DNA of 64,000 nt, from the NCBI RefSeq assembly GCF_026712205.1, contig NZ_JAPPUW010000010.1, positions 62,001 to 126,000 on the forward strand. The letters run 5' to 3'. The position numbers and the translations under genes were made by a program. This DNA comes from Pelomonas aquatica (GTDB lineage: Bacteria > Pseudomonadota > Gammaproteobacteria > Burkholderiales > Burkholderiaceae_C). Numbering within the stretch: the stretch's first letter is position 1; each line of letters starts with the position of its first letter. This document shows, one piece after another, positions 17,148 through 63,541 of the stretch. The notes under the pieces were generated by a model, which had not been told where the DNA came from, ran no database searches, and was given only the letters and a program-made list of their open reading frames with translations.

Positions 17148-17294
17148 ATAATCCGCGCGGGCGCCGCCGGGCCATGGTGGCGCCGGATCCATGCCGCTCC
17201 GGCCTGCATTCGAACCGCTTCGCGCCTGCCACGAAACCCGCGACGAACCGCCAGCCGGTGGCAGGCGCCGTCCCCCTCTCACTAGGCCGCCGCG

Positions 17295-18740
17295 ATGCGT
17301 TCAATTGCCGACTTCACCCGCCGCCTGCCGCCCTGGTGGCCCCTCGTCCTGCTGGCGCTGTGGCTGGTCGCCACGGCCGGCTGGCGGCCCGTGGCCCTGC
17401 CCGACGAAGGCCGCTACGGCGGCGTGGCCTACGAGATGCTGCGCAGCGGCGACGGGCTGACGCCAACTCTGTTCGGCATGCCCTATTTCCACAAGCCGCC
17501 GCTGATGTACTGGATCGACATTGCGGCCCTGAAAGTGCTGGGGCCCCATGCACTGGCCCTGCGCATGGCGCCGCTGGTGGGCGCCTGGGTGATGGGCCTG
17601 GCACTGTGGATCGAGGCCGGTGCGCGCTACGGGCACGACGGCGCATGCAAGGCGCTGGCCGTGCTGGCCGTGCTGCCGCTCTTCTACCTCGGCAGCCAGT
17701 ACGCCAACCACGACATGCTGGTGGCCGGCTGGATCTCGCTGGCCGTCGCCGCCGCGCGGCGTGCGCTGACGCCGCAGCGGCGCAGCCTCGCCTGGCTGTG
17801 CACGGCCTGGGGCGCGATGGCCCTGGCCCTGCTGTCCAAGGGCCTGATCGGCGTCGTGCTGCCCGGCCTCATCGTTGCCCCATGGCTGCTGGCGAACCGC
17901 CGCTGGGCCGACCTGCGCTTCGCGCTGCACCCGCTGGCCCTGCTCGTTTTCGTCGCCATCGCGCTGCCGTGGATGGTGGCCATGCAGCAGCGCTACCCGG
18001 GCTTCTTCGACTACTTCATCATCGAACAGCATTTCGCCCGCTACACCGAGGCGCGCTTCAACAACCCCCAGCCCTGGTGGTTCTTCCTCGTCGTGCTGCC
18101 GCTGGGCACGCTGCCGCTGAGCCTGCGCCTGCCCGGCGCGCTGCGCCGCACGGGCTTCGACCTCTGGTGGGTCGTCGTCATCCTGGCCTTCTTCTCGATG
18201 CCGCGCTCCAAGCTGGTCGGCTATGTGCTGCCGGCGCTGCTGCCGCTGGCCCTGCTGCTGTTCGAGGCCTGGCGCGGCCGGCGCGGCGAGCGCGCGGCCT
18301 GGGTCGTCGCGGCGCTGGTCTGCGTGCTCACGGTGCCCGCCGTCGTGTACTGGGGCCGCCCCGATCATTCGGACGTCGGCACCGCGCTGCGCGAGCGCCT
18401 GGCGCCGGGCGACCGCGTGCTGCTGACCGGCGGCTCCTTCTTCGACCTGCGCCTGCAGGCCCGCCTCGACGCGCCGCCCGCCGTGCTGGACGACTGGGAG
18501 GCGCTGCGCAGCCGGGGCGGCGACAGCTGGCGGCAGGAGCTGCTCGACGCGGCCCGCTTCGACCCCGCGCGCGGCGACGAGGTGCTGTGGACGCCGGCCC
18601 GGCTGGCCCGCGAACGCTGCCAGGCAGGCCGCATCTGGCTCGTGGCCGCGCCCGCGGACGCCCTGCCCGACGCGCGGCCCGTGTTCACCGGCCGCCGCGC
18701 GACGCTGTTCGAGCTGCCGCCACCCGCCAGTTGCCCATGA
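17295..18740 (+). CDS. ArnT-like/GT39 family polyprenyl-phosphate-dependent glycosyltransferase
   Basis: The 481-residue multi-spanning inner-membrane protein begins with a membrane helix (WWPLVLLALWLVATAGW). The family's first periplasmic loop follows, LPDEGRYGGVAYEMLRSGD, with the acidic pair that coordinates the lipid-phosphate donor, and then YFHKPPLMYW. About ten hydrophobic segments follow, then a soluble C-terminal domain (about 350-481). Such enzymes transfer a sugar from undecaprenyl or dolichyl phosphate to lipid A, protein or other acceptors; the acceptor is unknown here. Its stop overlaps the GtrA start (ATGA). With the GT2 enzyme encoded convergently it could form a donor-making plus transferring system. 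Confidence 0.85.
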   Translation: MRSIADFTRRLPPWWPLVLLALWLVATAGWRPVALPDEGRYGGVAYEMLRSGDGLTPTLFGMPYFHKPPLMYWIDIAALKVLGPHALALRMAPLVGAWVMGLALWIEAGARYGHDGACKALAVLAVLPLFYLGSQYANHDMLVAGWISLAVAAARRALTPQRRSLAWLCTAWGAMALALLSKGLIGVVLPGLIVAPWLLANRRWADLRFALHPLALLVFVAIALPWMVAMQQRYPGFFDYFIIEQHFARYTEARFNNPQPWWFFLVVLPLGTLPLSLRLPGALRRTGFDLWWVVVILAFFSMPRSKLVGYVLPALLPLALLLFEAWRGRRGERAAWVVAALVCVLTVPAVVYWGRPDHSDVGTALRERLAPGDRVLLTGGSFFDLRLQARLDAPPAVLDDWEALRSRGGDSWRQELLDAARFDPARGDEVLWTPARLARERCQAGRIWLVAAPADALPDARPVFTGRRATLFELPPPASCP

Positions 18741-19105
18741 AGCGGCTGGCGCGCTACGCGAGCGTCGGCGTCGCCGCCACGGCGGCGCACTATGCGCTGC
18801 TGGTGCTGGTGGTCGAGGCCTGGCACTGGCCGGCCTGGCTGGGCTCGGGCGCCGGCGCGCTGCTCGGCGCGCAGATCGCGTTCTGGGCCAACCGGCGCTA
18901 CACCTTCGACCACCGCGGCCCCTGGTGGCCCGCCTGGTGCCGCTTCCATGCGACGGCCGGCGCGGGCGCGCTGCTCGGCATGCTGCTGGTGGACGCCGGC
19001 GTGCGCGCCGGGCTGCACTATCTGCTGGCCCAGGGCGCGGCGACCCTCATCGTCATGCTGGCCAGCTTCGCGGCCAACCGGGTCTGGACCTTCGGGCAGC
19101 GCTGA
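18737..19105 (+). CDS. GtrA family membrane protein (putative flippase)
   Basis: The 122-residue protein has four predicted membrane helices and the family marks RYASVGVAATAAHYALL, FWANRRYTF near the middle and FAANRVWTF at the end. GtrA proteins are thought to flip undecaprenyl-phosphate-linked sugars across the inner membrane. The gene overlaps the ArnT-like gene by 4 bp and shares a likely pathway with it and with the GT2 gene at 20030-20986. Confidence 0.88.
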   Translation: MKRLARYASVGVAATAAHYALLVLVVEAWHWPAWLGSGAGALLGAQIAFWANRRYTFDHRGPWWPAWCRFHATAGAGALLGMLLVDAGVRAGLHYLLAQGAATLIVMLASFAANRVWTFGQR

Positions 19106-19114
19106 AGCAAGGTG

Positions 19115-19243
19115 CTCGCCCAGCCCCGCATCGCTGAACGCGGGCGAGTCTGGTCGGTCCCCCGCGGGACGAGGCTGTTTGCGGCATTGAGCCGCAAACA
19201 GCCTCAGGTGGGCCGGCTTGGGAGTGGCCCGGCGCTCGGCCCG
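19115..19243. repeat. Intergenic hairpin repeat, copy A
   Basis: This 129-bp element lies between convergent gtrA-like and chbG-like genes. It shares with copy B (61956-62086) a left block including TGGTCGGTCCCCCGCGGG and a right block including GGGCCGGCTTGGG and CTCGGCCCG. Between them stands a perfect 15-bp hairpin (19171-19185 with 19191-19205, loop ATTGA) whose sequence differs from that of copy B although the shape is kept. Confidence 0.8.
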
Positions 19244-19247
19244 GAAA

Positions 19248-20033
19248 TCAGCGGCTCAGTTCGACGCCAAACTCCGCCAGGTCAGCCGCGAAGGCCTCGC
19301 CGGCCAGATAGGCCATCTCGTTGACCCGCGCCGCGCCGATCGGGTCGCCGGCATCGGGTTCGCCCAGCGCCGGGTGGCAGAACAGCAGCGCGCCGTCGGG
19401 CGCGGCGGCCAGCCAGCCGCGCATCAGCGCACGGTAGTCGGCCCGCGGGTCGAAGCCGTAGACGCCCACCAGGGCCGTCGCGGATGCCACATGGCTCGCA
19501 CGCATCTCGGCCGCCAGCGCGCGGCCCCCGCAGGCCTCGATGACGCGGCGCTTGAACGCGAAGCCCTGGCCCGGCAGCCGGCCGGTGTTGCGCAGCGGCA
19601 CGCCCAGGCTGCGCGCGGCCGCCAGCGCATGAGGGCGCACGCCGGGCAGCGCATGCACATGCTGGTGACCGTCGATGAAGGCGGGCGGACGGCCCGTGAC
19701 GGCGACGAAGCGCTGCAGCTGGGCCTGGAACTCGTCGGCCACCGCGGCCGGCAGCCGGCGCAGGAAGGCCTGCGCGATGACGCTGCCGAGGGACGGGAAG
19801 CGCGGCCAGTGGCGGCGCAGCGCGGCGCTGAGCGGCTCGCCCTCGGTCAGGTTGAAGTGCAGGCCGGCGTCGGCCGGCACGTCGCGCAGGGCCGGCCCCG
19901 CCTCGGCCCAGCGCGGCGCCGTGACGAGGGCGCTCAGCGCCGTGACGCGGCCCTGAGCGGCCAGCGCCAGGATGCCGCGGTCCACCGCGGAGCCCTGGCC
20001 GTAGTCGTCCGCGCAGACGGCGAGCCGCTTCAC
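19248..20033 (-). CDS. ChbG/HpnK-like (YdjC family) deacetylase
   Basis: This 261-residue carbohydrate deacetylase-fold protein has the metal-binding start VCADDYGQGSAVDRGIL, then GLHFNLTEGEPL and FIDGHQHVHALPGVRP, the Asp and His ligands of the family. ChbG removes acetyl groups from chitooligosaccharides and HpnK acts on hopanoid intermediates. The neighbouring GT2 gene (4-bp ATGA overlap) suggests processing of a lipid-linked sugar. The natural substrate cannot be assigned. Confidence 0.88.
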   Translation of the reverse strand: MKRLAVCADDYGQGSAVDRGILALAAQGRVTALSALVTAPRWAEAGPALRDVPADAGLHFNLTEGEPLSAALRRHWPRFPSLGSVIAQAFLRRLPAAVADEFQAQLQRFVAVTGRPPAFIDGHQHVHALPGVRPHALAAARSLGVPLRNTGRLPGQGFAFKRRVIEACGGRALAAEMRASHVASATALVGVYGFDPRADYRALMRGWLAAAPDGALLFCHPALGEPDAGDPIGAARVNEMAYLAGEAFAADLAEFGVELSR

Positions 20034-45437: not shown

Positions 45438-45450
45438 AATGCCGCCTCTT

Positions 45451-45520
45451 CCGAGGAGCGTTGCAACCTCAGCTCGAGGCCAGGCTCGGAAGTCCAGCCC
45501 CCTGCAACTGCGCTCACCCG
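45451..45520 (+). promoter_or_regulatory. S-adenosylhomocysteine (SAH) riboswitch upstream of ahcY
   Basis: The conserved core is present: CCGAGGAGCGTTGCAACC (from 45451), CCAGGCTCGG (45480-45489) and CTGCAACTGCGCTCACCC (45502-45519). Pairings of the known fold exist: GAGCG (45456-45460) with CGCTC (45511-45515) for P1, CCTC with GAGG (45467-45470, 45476-45479), and CCGAG with CTCGG (45451-45455, 45485-45489) for the LL-type pseudoknot. SAH riboswitches turn on ahcY when SAH accumulates. A 7-bp inverted repeat (45514-45520 with 45536-45542) overlapping the P1 3' strand may be the expression platform. TAGAAT at 45435-45440 is a possible -10 box. Confidence 0.93.
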
Positions 45521-45595
45521 CTGGCCGTCCGTGCCCGGGTGAGGAATGCCCCACCCGTCGACCGCCAGCGGCTTCATTCGCTTGAAGGAGCCCGC

Positions 45596-59981: not shown

Positions 59982-60169
59982 AGCGGCGCCAGGCCGGGCG
60001 GTCGGGCCAGCCCTGCCGACCCGCGGACCGTGGCAAATGCCACACCCGGCCGCGGTTCAAGCGGCGAGTTGTTGCCACAGGTAAGCAACGGCACCGCCAG
60101 GCAACCTCGCGTTACCACCGGCGCAGGCTCCGGCGGCCAAGATGCATGGTCCTCACCCCGGAGCCGACG

Positions 60170-61942
60170 ATGCCGCAGCGCCAGCCCGCCCCCCGTCCCG
60201 CGCGCCGGGCCGCCACCGCCGCACTGGCCCTGTCGGCCGCGACACTGGTCCTGTCGACCGCGATGCTGTCCGGCTGCGGCGGCGGGTCGGGCGGCAACCC
60301 CGGCGCCCCGCCGACGGCGCCCGGCACTGCCGGCGCGCCGCCGATGAGCCAGCGCGACGCGGTGCGCCTGGCCTCGCAGGCCAGCTTCGGCGCGACCGAG
60401 GGCCTGGTCGCGCAGATGCGCACGCAGAGCGCCTCAACCTGGGTGCAGGCCCAGTTGGCGCTGCCGCAGGGCTCGCACTACAGCTCGGGCGGCGGCAGCG
60501 CCATCCACGCCGACGTCAACGACACGGCCTTCTGCGACCGTGCCGCCAACAAGGGCGACAACTGCTGGCGCGACTGGTTCTCCAGCCAGCCGCTGCTGTG
60601 GGACTTTTACCGCAACGCCGTCGGCCAGCCCGACCAGCTGCGCCAGCGCATGGCCTTCGCGCTGCAGCAGATCCTCGTCGTCAGCAACCTGGCGGTGGAA
60701 GGCACCTACGGCCTGCGCCGCTACCAGAACGCGCTGCTGGACAACGCGCTGGGCAACTACCGCGACGTGCTGCGCGCGGTGGCGCTGAGCCCGGTCATGG
60801 GCGACTACCTGAACGGCGTCAACAACGACAAGGCCGCCCCCAACGAGAACTTCCCGCGCGAGCTGCTGCAGCTCTTCTCGCTCGGCACCTGCCTGCTGGA
60901 GATGGACGGCAGCCTGAAGGGCGGACGCTGCCAGCCCACCTACGGCAACACCGATGTGCGCGCCTATGCCTATGCGCTGACCGGCTGGACCTACCCGGCC
61001 GGCGGCAAGGCCGCCTGGGACTGCTCGCCGCAGGGGGCCAACTGCCAGTTCTACGACGGCGACATGGTGCCGCTGCCGGCCCTGCACGACACGACCGAAC
61101 GCGCGCTGCTGGCCGGCGGCAAGGCGCCCGCCGGCAGCACGCCGTCCCAGGCGCTGGACGCCGTGCTGGACAGCCTGATGGCCCATCCCAACATGCCGCC
61201 CTTCATCGGCCGCCAGCTGATCCAGGCCCTGGTGCGCTCCAACCCGTCGAGCGGCTATGTGGGCCGCGTCGCCGCCGCCTTCCAGGGCGGCCGGTTCAGC
61301 AAGGACGGCATCAGCTTCGGCAGCGGCCGCGTGGGCGACCTGGGCGCCACGGTGGCCGCCGTGCTGCTGGACGCCGAGGCCCGCGGCGACGCCCCGCCCG
61401 GCAGCGCTGGCGGGCGGCTGCGCGACCCCGTGCTGATGATGACGGGCGTGCTGCGCGCGCTGAACGGCCGCACCGACGGCGACGCGCTGGGCTGGTGGTG
61501 GGGCGAGGCGCTGCGCCAGCATGTCTTCCGCTCGCCCTCGGTCTTCAACTTCTACCCGCCCGACTACCCGGTGCCCGGCACCCGGCTGAGCGGCGGCGCC
61601 TTCGGCATCCACAACGCCAACACGGCGCTGGAGCGGCTGAACTACCTGGCCTATCTGCTCGACTGGGGCGGCTCGGCGCCGTCCGCCGGCGTGCCGAACG
61701 CGACCGGCACCGCCGTCACGCTGGACGCCTTCGACGCCGATGCCGCCGACGCGGGCAAGCTGGTCGATCGCCTGTCGCTGCTGGCCCACGGCGAGGTGCT
61801 GCCAGACCCCGCGCGCGCCAAGATCGTCGACGCGGTCTCCTGGTGGACGGACCAGACCGACGCCAAGACCTGGCAGCGCAACCGCGTGAAGACGGCGGCC
61901 TATCTCGTGTTCGCCGCATCTCAGTACCAGATCGTCCGCTAA
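60170..61942 (+). CDS. DUF1800 family exported lipoprotein
   Basis: The 590-residue protein carries a long signal region with lipobox LSGC (LVLSTAMLSGCGGGSGG), so an acylated Cys near residue 38 is likely, then DUF1800. Typical segments are DAVRLASQASFGATEGLVAQ, RQRMAFALQQILVVS, NFPRELLQLFSLGTC, PPFIGRQLIQALVRSNPSSG and FNFYPPDYPVPGT. DUF1800 and DUF1501 genes are commonly adjacent, as here with the gene at 62123. Their joint function is unknown. An in-frame ATG 24 bp upstream (60146) is an alternative start. Confidence 0.9.
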   Translation: MPQRQPAPRPARRAATAALALSAATLVLSTAMLSGCGGGSGGNPGAPPTAPGTAGAPPMSQRDAVRLASQASFGATEGLVAQMRTQSASTWVQAQLALPQGSHYSSGGGSAIHADVNDTAFCDRAANKGDNCWRDWFSSQPLLWDFYRNAVGQPDQLRQRMAFALQQILVVSNLAVEGTYGLRRYQNALLDNALGNYRDVLRAVALSPVMGDYLNGVNNDKAAPNENFPRELLQLFSLGTCLLEMDGSLKGGRCQPTYGNTDVRAYAYALTGWTYPAGGKAAWDCSPQGANCQFYDGDMVPLPALHDTTERALLAGGKAPAGSTPSQALDAVLDSLMAHPNMPPFIGRQLIQALVRSNPSSGYVGRVAAAFQGGRFSKDGISFGSGRVGDLGATVAAVLLDAEARGDAPPGSAGGRLRDPVLMMTGVLRALNGRTDGDALGWWWGEALRQHVFRSPSVFNFYPPDYPVPGTRLSGGAFGIHNANTALERLNYLAYLLDWGGSAPSAGVPNATGTAVTLDAFDADAADAGKLVDRLSLLAHGEVLPDPARAKIVDAVSWWTDQTDAKTWQRNRVKTAAYLVFAASQYQIVR

Positions 61943-61955
61943 TGACCGTGAGCCC

Positions 61956-62086
61956 CTCGCCCACCCTTGCGCTGCTGAACGCAGGCAAGCCTGGTCGGTC
62001 CCCCGCGGGGACGGCGATGCTTGCCGGATCGACCGGCAAGTACATCGCCCACCGGGCCGGCTTGGGGCGGCCCGGTGCTCGGCCCG
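61956..62086. repeat. Intergenic hairpin repeat, copy B
   Basis: This 131-bp element shares blocks with copy A (19115-19243): GCTGAACGC, CTGGTCGGTCCCCCGCGGG and GGGCCGGCTTGGG. The central hairpin has a different sequence: GGCGATG (62013-62019) with CATCGCC (62043-62049), and CTTGCCGG (62020-62027) with CCGGCAAG (62033-62040), loop ATCGA and a 2-nt bulge. It lies between the codirectional DUF1800 and DUF1501 genes and would be transcribed if they form an operon. Confidence 0.8.
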
Positions 62087-62122
62087 CAGGTTCACCGCGC
62101 GCAACCGCGTGAAAGGTTTTCG

Positions 62123-63541
62123 ATGTCTCACCACCCACATCAACATTCGGCCTCGCGCCGCCGCCTGCTCGCCGGCGCCCTGGGCCTCGGCGGCCTGGCG
62201 GCCCTCGCGCCGCTGCGCCTGGCCCGTGCGGCCGACTTCAAGGCCCTGGTCTGCGTCTTCCTGTACGGCGGCAACGACGGAATGAACACCGTCGTGCCGA
62301 TGGACGCCGGCCGCTATGCCGACTACGCCAAGGTGCGCGCCGGCCTGGCCCTGCCCCAGGCCAGCCTGGGCCGCCTGGGCACGAGCGACTTCGGCCTGCA
62401 CCCGGCGCTGGCCGCGCTGAACCCGCTGTTCGCCGCCGGCAAGCTGGCCGTGCAATTCAACGTCGGCCCGCTCTACGCGCCGCTGACCAAGGCCCAGTAC
62501 CACGCCGACGCCGGCCAGACCGCGCTGACGCCGCCCAGCCTGTTCTCGCACAGCGACCAGCAGGTGCTGTGGGAGTCCGCCAGCACCGACGCGCAGAGCC
62601 GCACCGGCTGGGGCGGCCGCAGCGCGGTGGCGCTGGGCCTGGCCAGCCCGGTCGTCAGCGTCGGCGGCAACGGCCACTTCGGCCTGTCGGAGCTGGTCGC
62701 GCCGCTGGTGCTGCCCGGCCCGGGCGAGGGCTTCGGCGCCGCCGGCCTGGGCGCCGCCGACATCGGCTGGAAGCCCAACGCCCTCAAGCTCGACGCCGTG
62801 AAGGCCCTGGCCGCGCAGGCGGCCGACACCGACCTCGCCGGCGCCTTCCAGAAACAGCAGCAGGCCGCGATGGCCCTGGCCGACCAGCTCGGCCCGCTGA
62901 TCCAGCGCAGGCCCGGCGACGCCGGCAGCAACGCCGCCATCGACACCGCCTTCGCGCCGCTGATCGCCAACGGCAACGTGACGACCGGCCTGGGCCAGCA
63001 GCTCTACCAGACCGCCAAGCTGCTCGACGTGCGCGCCACGCTGGGCGGCACGCGGCAGATCTACTTCGCCCAGCTCGGCGGCTTCGACACCCACGGCGGC
63101 CAGGCCGGTGCCAACGTGCTGGCGGGCACGCATGCCGCACTGCTCAAGCAGCTGGGCGACGCGCTGGCCTGCTTCCAGGCCGCGCTGACGGCCCTGGGCC
63201 TGGCCGACTCGGTCACGACCTTCACGCAGAGCGACTTCGGCCGCACCTTCCTGCCCAACAACAGCGGCGGCACCGACCACGCCTGGGGCAACCACCACCT
63301 CGTCTTCGGCGGCGCGGTCAAGGGCGGCCTCTACGGCGCCTACCCGACGCTGGCCCTGGGCGGGCCGGACGATGTCGGCGTCGACAGCTGGGAGCAGCAG
63401 GGCCGCTGGATCCCGACCAGCTCGGTGGACCAGTACGCGGCGACGCTGCTGGGCTGGATGGGCGCGAGCGACAGCCAGCTCAACAGCGTGCTGCCCAATC
63501 TGCCCAACTTCGGCAGCGCCAGGAACCTAGGTTTCGTCTAG
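62123..63541 (+). CDS. DUF1501 family exported protein (Tat signal)
   Basis: The 472-residue protein begins with a twin-arginine signal: HSASRRRLLAGALGLGGLAA followed by ALAPLRLARA. DUF1501 segments are CVFLYGGNDGMNTVVPMD, RYADYAKVRAGLAL, FSHSDQQVLWES, YFAQLGGFDTHGGQ, TFTQSDFGRTF and GTDHAWGNHHLVFGG. The His/Asp-rich motifs resemble sulfatase/alkaline-phosphatase-like folds, but activity is undefined. It pairs with the upstream DUF1800 gene. Its TAG overlaps the TAG of the convergent peptidase gene within CTAG. Confidence 0.93.
   Translation: MSHHPHQHSASRRRLLAGALGLGGLAALAPLRLARAADFKALVCVFLYGGNDGMNTVVPMDAGRYADYAKVRAGLALPQASLGRLGTSDFGLHPALAALNPLFAAGKLAVQFNVGPLYAPLTKAQYHADAGQTALTPPSLFSHSDQQVLWESASTDAQSRTGWGGRSAVALGLASPVVSVGGNGHFGLSELVAPLVLPGPGEGFGAAGLGAADIGWKPNALKLDAVKALAAQAADTDLAGAFQKQQQAAMALADQLGPLIQRRPGDAGSNAAIDTAFAPLIANGNVTTGLGQQLYQTAKLLDVRATLGGTRQIYFAQLGGFDTHGGQAGANVLAGTHAALLKQLGDALACFQAALTALGLADSVTTFTQSDFGRTFLPNNSGGTDHAWGNHHLVFGGAVKGGLYGAYPTLALGGPDDVGVDSWEQQGRWIPTSSVDQYAATLLGWMGASDSQLNSVLPNLPNFGSARNLGFV

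Follow-up and report, generated by a model that had tools for sequence, protein, structure and literature searches.

Two copies of a repeat lie 43 kb apart in the window, the stretch of 64,000 nucleotides of Pelomonas aquatica analysed here, and a first-pass annotation described them as conserved flanks around a hairpin kept in shape only. The locus raises the question of what kind of element these copies represent, and whether their pairing is maintained on behalf of an RNA or at the level of DNA. Both copies were recovered on the forward strand with the covariance model R1 and in the sequence itself, copy A at 19111-19243 (contig 81111-81243) and copy B at 61952-62086 (contig 123952-124086), a window coordinate being the contig coordinate minus 62000. 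Copy A is located between an open frame with a C-terminal GtrA domain (17174-19105, forward strand; the start is putative and another ORF lies inside its first part) and a convergent YdjC-like gene (19248-20033, reverse strand). Its left edge is 5 nt past the stop codon ending at 19105, and the YdjC stop lies 4 nt beyond its right end. Copy B is flanked by two co-directional genes, DUF1800 upstream (60146-61942, forward strand) and DUF1501 downstream (62123-63541, forward strand; the ATG at 62123 was picked from the alignment with relatives), with the TAA stop 9 nt before it and the next start codon 36 nt after it. As whole copies on the forward strand they fold with z values of -3.6 (A) and -4.5 (B), and none of 200 shuffles folds equally well. 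The strong central stem with its 5-nt loop was confirmed in both, with z values of -7.5 (A) and -6.8 (B) and again no equal among 200 shuffles.

Both copies belong to the L class, whose consensus fold lines up four hairpins (HP1 to HP4). HP1 carries the loop TGAAC, HP2 has the arms GTCCCC and GGGGAC, HP4 has the arms GGGCCGGCTTGGG and CCCGGCGCTCGGCCC, and HP3 is the central stem of the first-pass annotation. In copy A, the consensus fold places the long form of HP1 at 19117-19156, HP2 at 19157-19170 and HP4, the most conserved module, at 19210-19242; HP3, a stem of 15 bp with the loop ATTGA, was placed at 19171-19205 by alignment and fold. In copy B, alignment places HP1 at 61958-61997, HP2 at 61997-62012 and HP4 at 62053-62086, and alignment and fold place HP3, with the loop ATCGA and a two-base bulge, at 62013-62049. 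Folded singly, A and B agree with the consensus fold in HP3, while HP1 or HP4 depart from it. The flanks are shared by the two copies, as had been reported, but what were taken for blocks are pieces of the further hairpins HP1, HP2 and HP4. That the centres differ almost completely is too strong a statement, since the alignment has the same base at 23 of 35 positions, with gaps at 2 further ones, and other copies bridge the two centres.

Lengths across the family are nested, with few copies in between: S of about 78 nt, M of about 118 nt and L of about 135 nt. S consists of a short HP1, HP2 and HP4 without HP3; M is S with HP3 added, and L is M with the long HP1. Loci from named records were found through the exact HP4 pattern, among the matches listed, and the shares of the classes among them are no census. 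Copies lacking the central stem had been named in advance as a finding that would speak against a conserved hairpin family; such copies do exist in one part of the family, the S class, and HP3 is therefore an optional module. In the window's genome, HP2 holds an extra insert in four copies (L072, L074, L075, L098) and HP4 in five (L013, L017, L073, L080, L099), at positions that look identical by eye. One orthologous site carries an M copy with short HP1 in the window's genome (L028) and an L copy with long HP1 in G016 (L277). The earlier idea of a cassette with an exchanged centre was thus partly right, given the modular hairpins, the presence or absence of HP3, the two forms of HP1 and the inserts in HP2 and HP4. 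Distances among 97 copies, taken separately in HP1, HP3 and HP4, are uncorrelated from module to module (r of -0.05, -0.04 and -0.02; 0.06 and 0.08 for pairs with HP2), values that a star-like radiation would yield equally with module exchange. Tandem S units, seen as two HP4 matches about 90 bases apart, occur among the matches listed at L108, L116, L128, L147 and L165. Six L copies (L003, L004, L049, L152, L168, L224) have a 3' tail in common; it ends near GGATAACTGACATG at the start codon that follows, as if the element spanned the distance from stop to start codon.

The two copies described at first are indeed present in the stretch, but the pair is too narrow a view, as the window's genome holds about 49 strong copies. 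R1 gives 70 matches there at E <= 0.1 (a few overlap) and 49 at E < 1e-6, and BLAST gives 49 matches, pieces counted. In a survey of 60 genomes with R1 at E <= 0.001, in which at most 55 candidates were scored per genome and filters were stricter, matches were found in 20 of 20 genomes of the genus (the window's genome included), in 4 of 16 from other genera of the same family and in 0 of 24 from other families of the order. The short (S) form is represented by the model R2, which matched 72 of 250 genomes of the family at E <= 1e-5, distributed amongst 47 of 141 genera. In a class sample of 274 genomes, R2 matched the window's genome and 0 of the 273 others, at least 2 of which belong to the same family. 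Among the matches listed, the exact HP4 pattern occurs in Roseateles, Pelomonas, Rhizobacter, Aquabacterium and Methylibium, and also in Piscinibacter, Ideonella, Paucibacter, Leptothrix and Sphaerotilus. Plasmid and phage records gave no match to copy B (query 61966-62086) at E 1e-5. Rfam left the repeat unmatched in the window, where it recognised a SAH riboswitch elsewhere (45447-45522, 64.5 bits), and found nothing in 13 loci that contain the element, with E allowed up to 1. No description of this repeat was found in the titles and abstract openings searched, a body of text that excludes most subscription journals.

Copies differ in their presence at orthologous sites. Copy A is lacking in all 9 relatives whose two flanks were read, other relatives matching on one side only, and copy B is lacking in all 6 such orthologues. 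For further sites, the joined flanks were searched in four relatives, a straight match across the junction marking an empty site. By this criterion, 10 of the 14 further L/M sites are empty in one or more of the four. Gaps consistent with an occupied relative were found at 8 of the 14 (L006, L007, L012, L014, L018, L019, L028, L062); three of these (L012, L019, L062) had no empty relative, so that some copies are not recent, and L004 gave a one-side match only. Twenty relative loci were read for the 10 L/M sites, 16 empty and 4 occupied. Among 10 S sites, 9 have at least one empty relative of four, and L090 gave a one-side match only; 19 of the 20 relative loci fetched for these 9 sites were read, and the S element is at the site in none of them. 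Fetched relative loci had been selected mainly for looking empty in the match tables. Two relatives (L345, L346) have another insert in place of the S copy L079, and where the S copy L091 stands, about 590 bases separate the flanks in G016 (L344).

Position and orientation follow rules that depend on class. Gene ends were called with a codon-usage score trained on this window, by which 193 of 209 distinct copies were readable at the left edge and 16 were unreadable. The left edge of L and M lies at a stop codon, in sense, in 107 of 119 copies, 99 of these within -1 to 12 nt. In S the left edge lies at a reverse-strand start codon in 58 of 74 copies, at exactly 4 nt in 33, and at a stop codon in 16 of 74; the odds ratio of class by orientation is 32. 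In a second set, found with R2 and overlapping the first at 3 or more loci, 27 of 29 loci could be read, and the spacing is exactly 4 nt for 17 of 23 starts. The ATG is visible as a base signal across 79 S copies, with A in 75%, T in 70% and G in 73% at positions -6, -5 and -4. On the mRNA, S ends in ...CGAGGGGC-NNNN-ATG, which is Shine-Dalgarno-like; where S is reversed and the start codon stands exactly 4 nt from the edge, its end GAGGGGC reads as a Shine-Dalgarno sequence. The distance from such a GAGGGG-type sequence to the ATG is normal for Shine-Dalgarno sequences. The fixed spacing of 4 nt may reflect a start codon that belongs to the element itself. Confinement to gene ends would come either from target choice or from the loss of harmful insertions. 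A TAACTGA motif stands near some start codons, reminiscent of PMC4679880.

GC-rich hairpins placed directly past stop codons could be intrinsic transcription terminators that have spread through the genome, and 15 of 69 L/M copies from the window's genome and the genus, with both sides scored, do lie tail to tail. Against this, 52 of the 69 have co-directional neighbours (48 copies in sense, 4 reversed), and no terminator-like site, defined as a GC hairpin followed by a T-run, was found in the two window regions. A role as terminators is accordingly very improbable.

The best explanation, to which we assign a probability of about 0.75, is that copies A and B belong to a non-autonomous, modular, mobile small interspersed element of Roseateles and other genera of the family. 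The core, composed of the left end GCCCCTCG, HP1, HP2 and HP4, would be spread by a putative enzyme, perhaps one acting on folded DNA or RNA, and transposition is the probable mechanism. Extra hairpins (HP3, and the inserts in HP2 and HP4) would be gained or exchanged as modules. Copies stand nearly always at gene ends and break neither neighbour, L and M lying on the sense strand directly past a stop codon and S mostly in reverse, where GAGGGGC, four bases and ATG would form the translation start of the next gene. At an overlapping junction, insertion would part the two genes and the overlap would be duplicated. GAGGGG would then serve as a portable ribosome-binding site, and translational coupling or mRNA stability might be affected as well. 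A mobile element with its home at gene ends and a ribosome-binding site of its own would readily supply changes in operon expression without the loss of any gene.

The mobile-element reading was compared with the usual marks of transposition. Flank repeats, set against re-paired flanks, indicate no general target-site duplication in L/M copies: no excess appears in the own, genus and named L/M sets, the one exception being 5 of 47 genus copies that at 150 nt exceed the 99% level. Some excess is present in the named S set, in which tandem units are counted. By eye, single S sites suggest duplications of different size, about 8-9 bp at L095 and about 5 bp at L088, the others showing only the duplicated overlap; as these lengths are inconsistent across sites, a single clean transposition signature is missing. 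Copy B is bracketed by a 15-bp direct repeat, GCGCAACCGCGTGAA, at 61876-61890 and 62099-62113, perhaps a decayed long target-site duplication. Inspection of the left end GCCCCTCG against the reverse-complemented right end CGGGCCGA found no terminal inverted repeats. The window's genome has two PF01797 matches, 1 above the cut-off and 1 below, and no R2 match occurs in the two fetched loci; no RAYT/Y1 gene was thus found beside a copy in this genome.

Several known systems share parts of this description. Integron attC sites are hairpin sites directly past stop codons, conserved in shape. By that general description the likeness lies in hairpin-site size, post-stop position and conserved shape, whereas the present element occurs as single copies scattered over contigs. 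Like MITEs it is short and non-coding and its insertion differs among species, but terminal inverted repeats (by inspection) and a constant target-site duplication are missing. Like REP/REPIN sequences with their RAYT, it consists of extragenic imperfect palindromes in many copies; however, a REP is one palindrome of 20-40 bp (PMC3733652), whereas several different hairpins are joined here, and the fetched loci of the PF01797 matches hold no copy. The resemblance in kind is to BOX-like small interspersed modular repeats, of the BOX/MITE kind. Such a repeat is expected to show many intergenic copies, modules in variable combination and insertion polymorphism, and here we find 49 R1 matches at E < 1e-6 with the placement given above, size classes together with HP2 and HP4 inserts, and polymorphism at orthologous sites. 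According to PMC3049150, Streptococcus pneumoniae has 125 BOX elements in one genome (besides RUP and SPRITE), with predicted stem-loops and a TIR similar to that of an IS; the likeness, by description only, lies in intergenic repeats with hairpin modules in variable number. The present element is set apart by its tie to stop and start codons, its orientation by class, the Shine-Dalgarno-like end of S and the lack of a visible TIR, which BOX possesses in that same account.

Pairing is kept despite changes of sequence, as had been proposed from the two copies. The L alignment (A3, 97 distinct copies) has 97.2% of cells paired and 184 double-change cells, compared with 31.9 +/- 4.7 in shuffles, and double changes occur in 13 of 15 HP3 pairs. 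The S alignment (A4, 99 distinct copies) has 97.7% paired and 99 double-change cells against 16.6 +/- 3.4. A3 and A4 were drawn from 100 and 96 loci chosen as L-class and S-class, and both were aligned to the structure model, which favours its pairs.

Such covariation in both classes is what a regulatory RNA that acts in cis and is under selection for its fold would show, its spread being a side effect, with L/M as a 3' UTR stabiliser or processing site and S as a 5' leader controlling the ribosome-binding site. The strictly sense position of L/M after stop codons fits this explanation, and so do the mismatches in HP1 of S (1 G.T and 14 A.C on the element strand), which, on the mRNA strand of reversed S, correspond to an excess of G.U. 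Another L copy, in G002 (L223, about 1501-1636), lies at a distant DUF1800-DUF1501 junction of the same type as that of copy B, between proteins 42-43% identical to those of the window (84-87% for the G016 orthologue); either a second insertion took place there or this junction is preferred, and such a preference could be functional. However, sites vary among species, Rfam has no match, and the mismatches in HP3 of L lean to the non-transcribed strand, with 11 G.T and 25 A.C cells on the element strand, which is the mRNA strand of the upstream gene. The inner stem of HP1 in L leans the opposite way (10 G.T, 3 A.C) and HP2 is even. Mismatch cells are mutually dependent, and strand mutation bias could also produce a G.T/A.C asymmetry. 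A regulatory RNA of this kind therefore appears rather unlikely. The first-pass annotation had proposed selection on RNA or cruciform structure; the covariation stands, and the RNA part is unsupported, as HP3 has no G.U preference on the transcribed strand.

Without that preference, a DNA hairpin or copying from arm to arm explains the covariation of HP3 equally well. The stems could be kept entirely at the DNA level, with a mobilising enzyme that needs single-stranded hairpins and template switching between arms that maintains pairing, and with no role for RNA. Inversions of a single arm, by which some copies have GCTCGC in both arms, point in this direction, as does HP4, the least variable module, in which two T.G pairs are kept in both classes. 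The invariance of HP4 is in part a selection effect, however, since HP4 served as search pattern and element finder; moreover, no enzyme was found in the searches above, and mutation bias bears on the strand asymmetry here too. Maintenance at the DNA level is thus conceivable but still doubtful. Covarying stems in repeats alone do not prove a functional RNA, and the copies together with their empty orthologous sites allow a test of whether covariation in a repeat reflects RNA selection or the mobility of DNA hairpins.

Returning to the mobile element as the preferred reading, the empty sites also suggest what insertion may do to neighbouring genes. Both relatives read at L082 carry CAATGACCTC, with an overlapping ATGA; in the window's genome gene 1 keeps ATGA and gene 2 starts as CGAGGGGCAGACATGACGACCTCC. 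By eye, the element separates genes whose stop and start codons overlap in at least one empty relative at L082, L079, L091 and L085, and at L010, L066 and L014. No such overlap is present in relatives at L083, and elsewhere the genes converge or are divided by short gaps. Tentatively, S may enter the stop/start overlaps of co-transcribed genes, the overlap being duplicated and coupling replaced by the Shine-Dalgarno sequence and start codon of the element, and the addition of HP3 (M/L) may lead to the post-stop sense form. If so, operon stoichiometry would be rewired by a transposable element with no gene broken, and the copies with their empty orthologous sites offer a way to test how overlapping genes become uncoupled. 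At the S copies L131 and L180, about 35-40 bases of flank are, by eye, repeated on both sides, a short frame is left that runs from the adjoining ATG up to the next gene, and the junction resembles fabG-fabF. At L203, a stretch of flank of about 30 bases or more likewise stands on both sides of the S copy.
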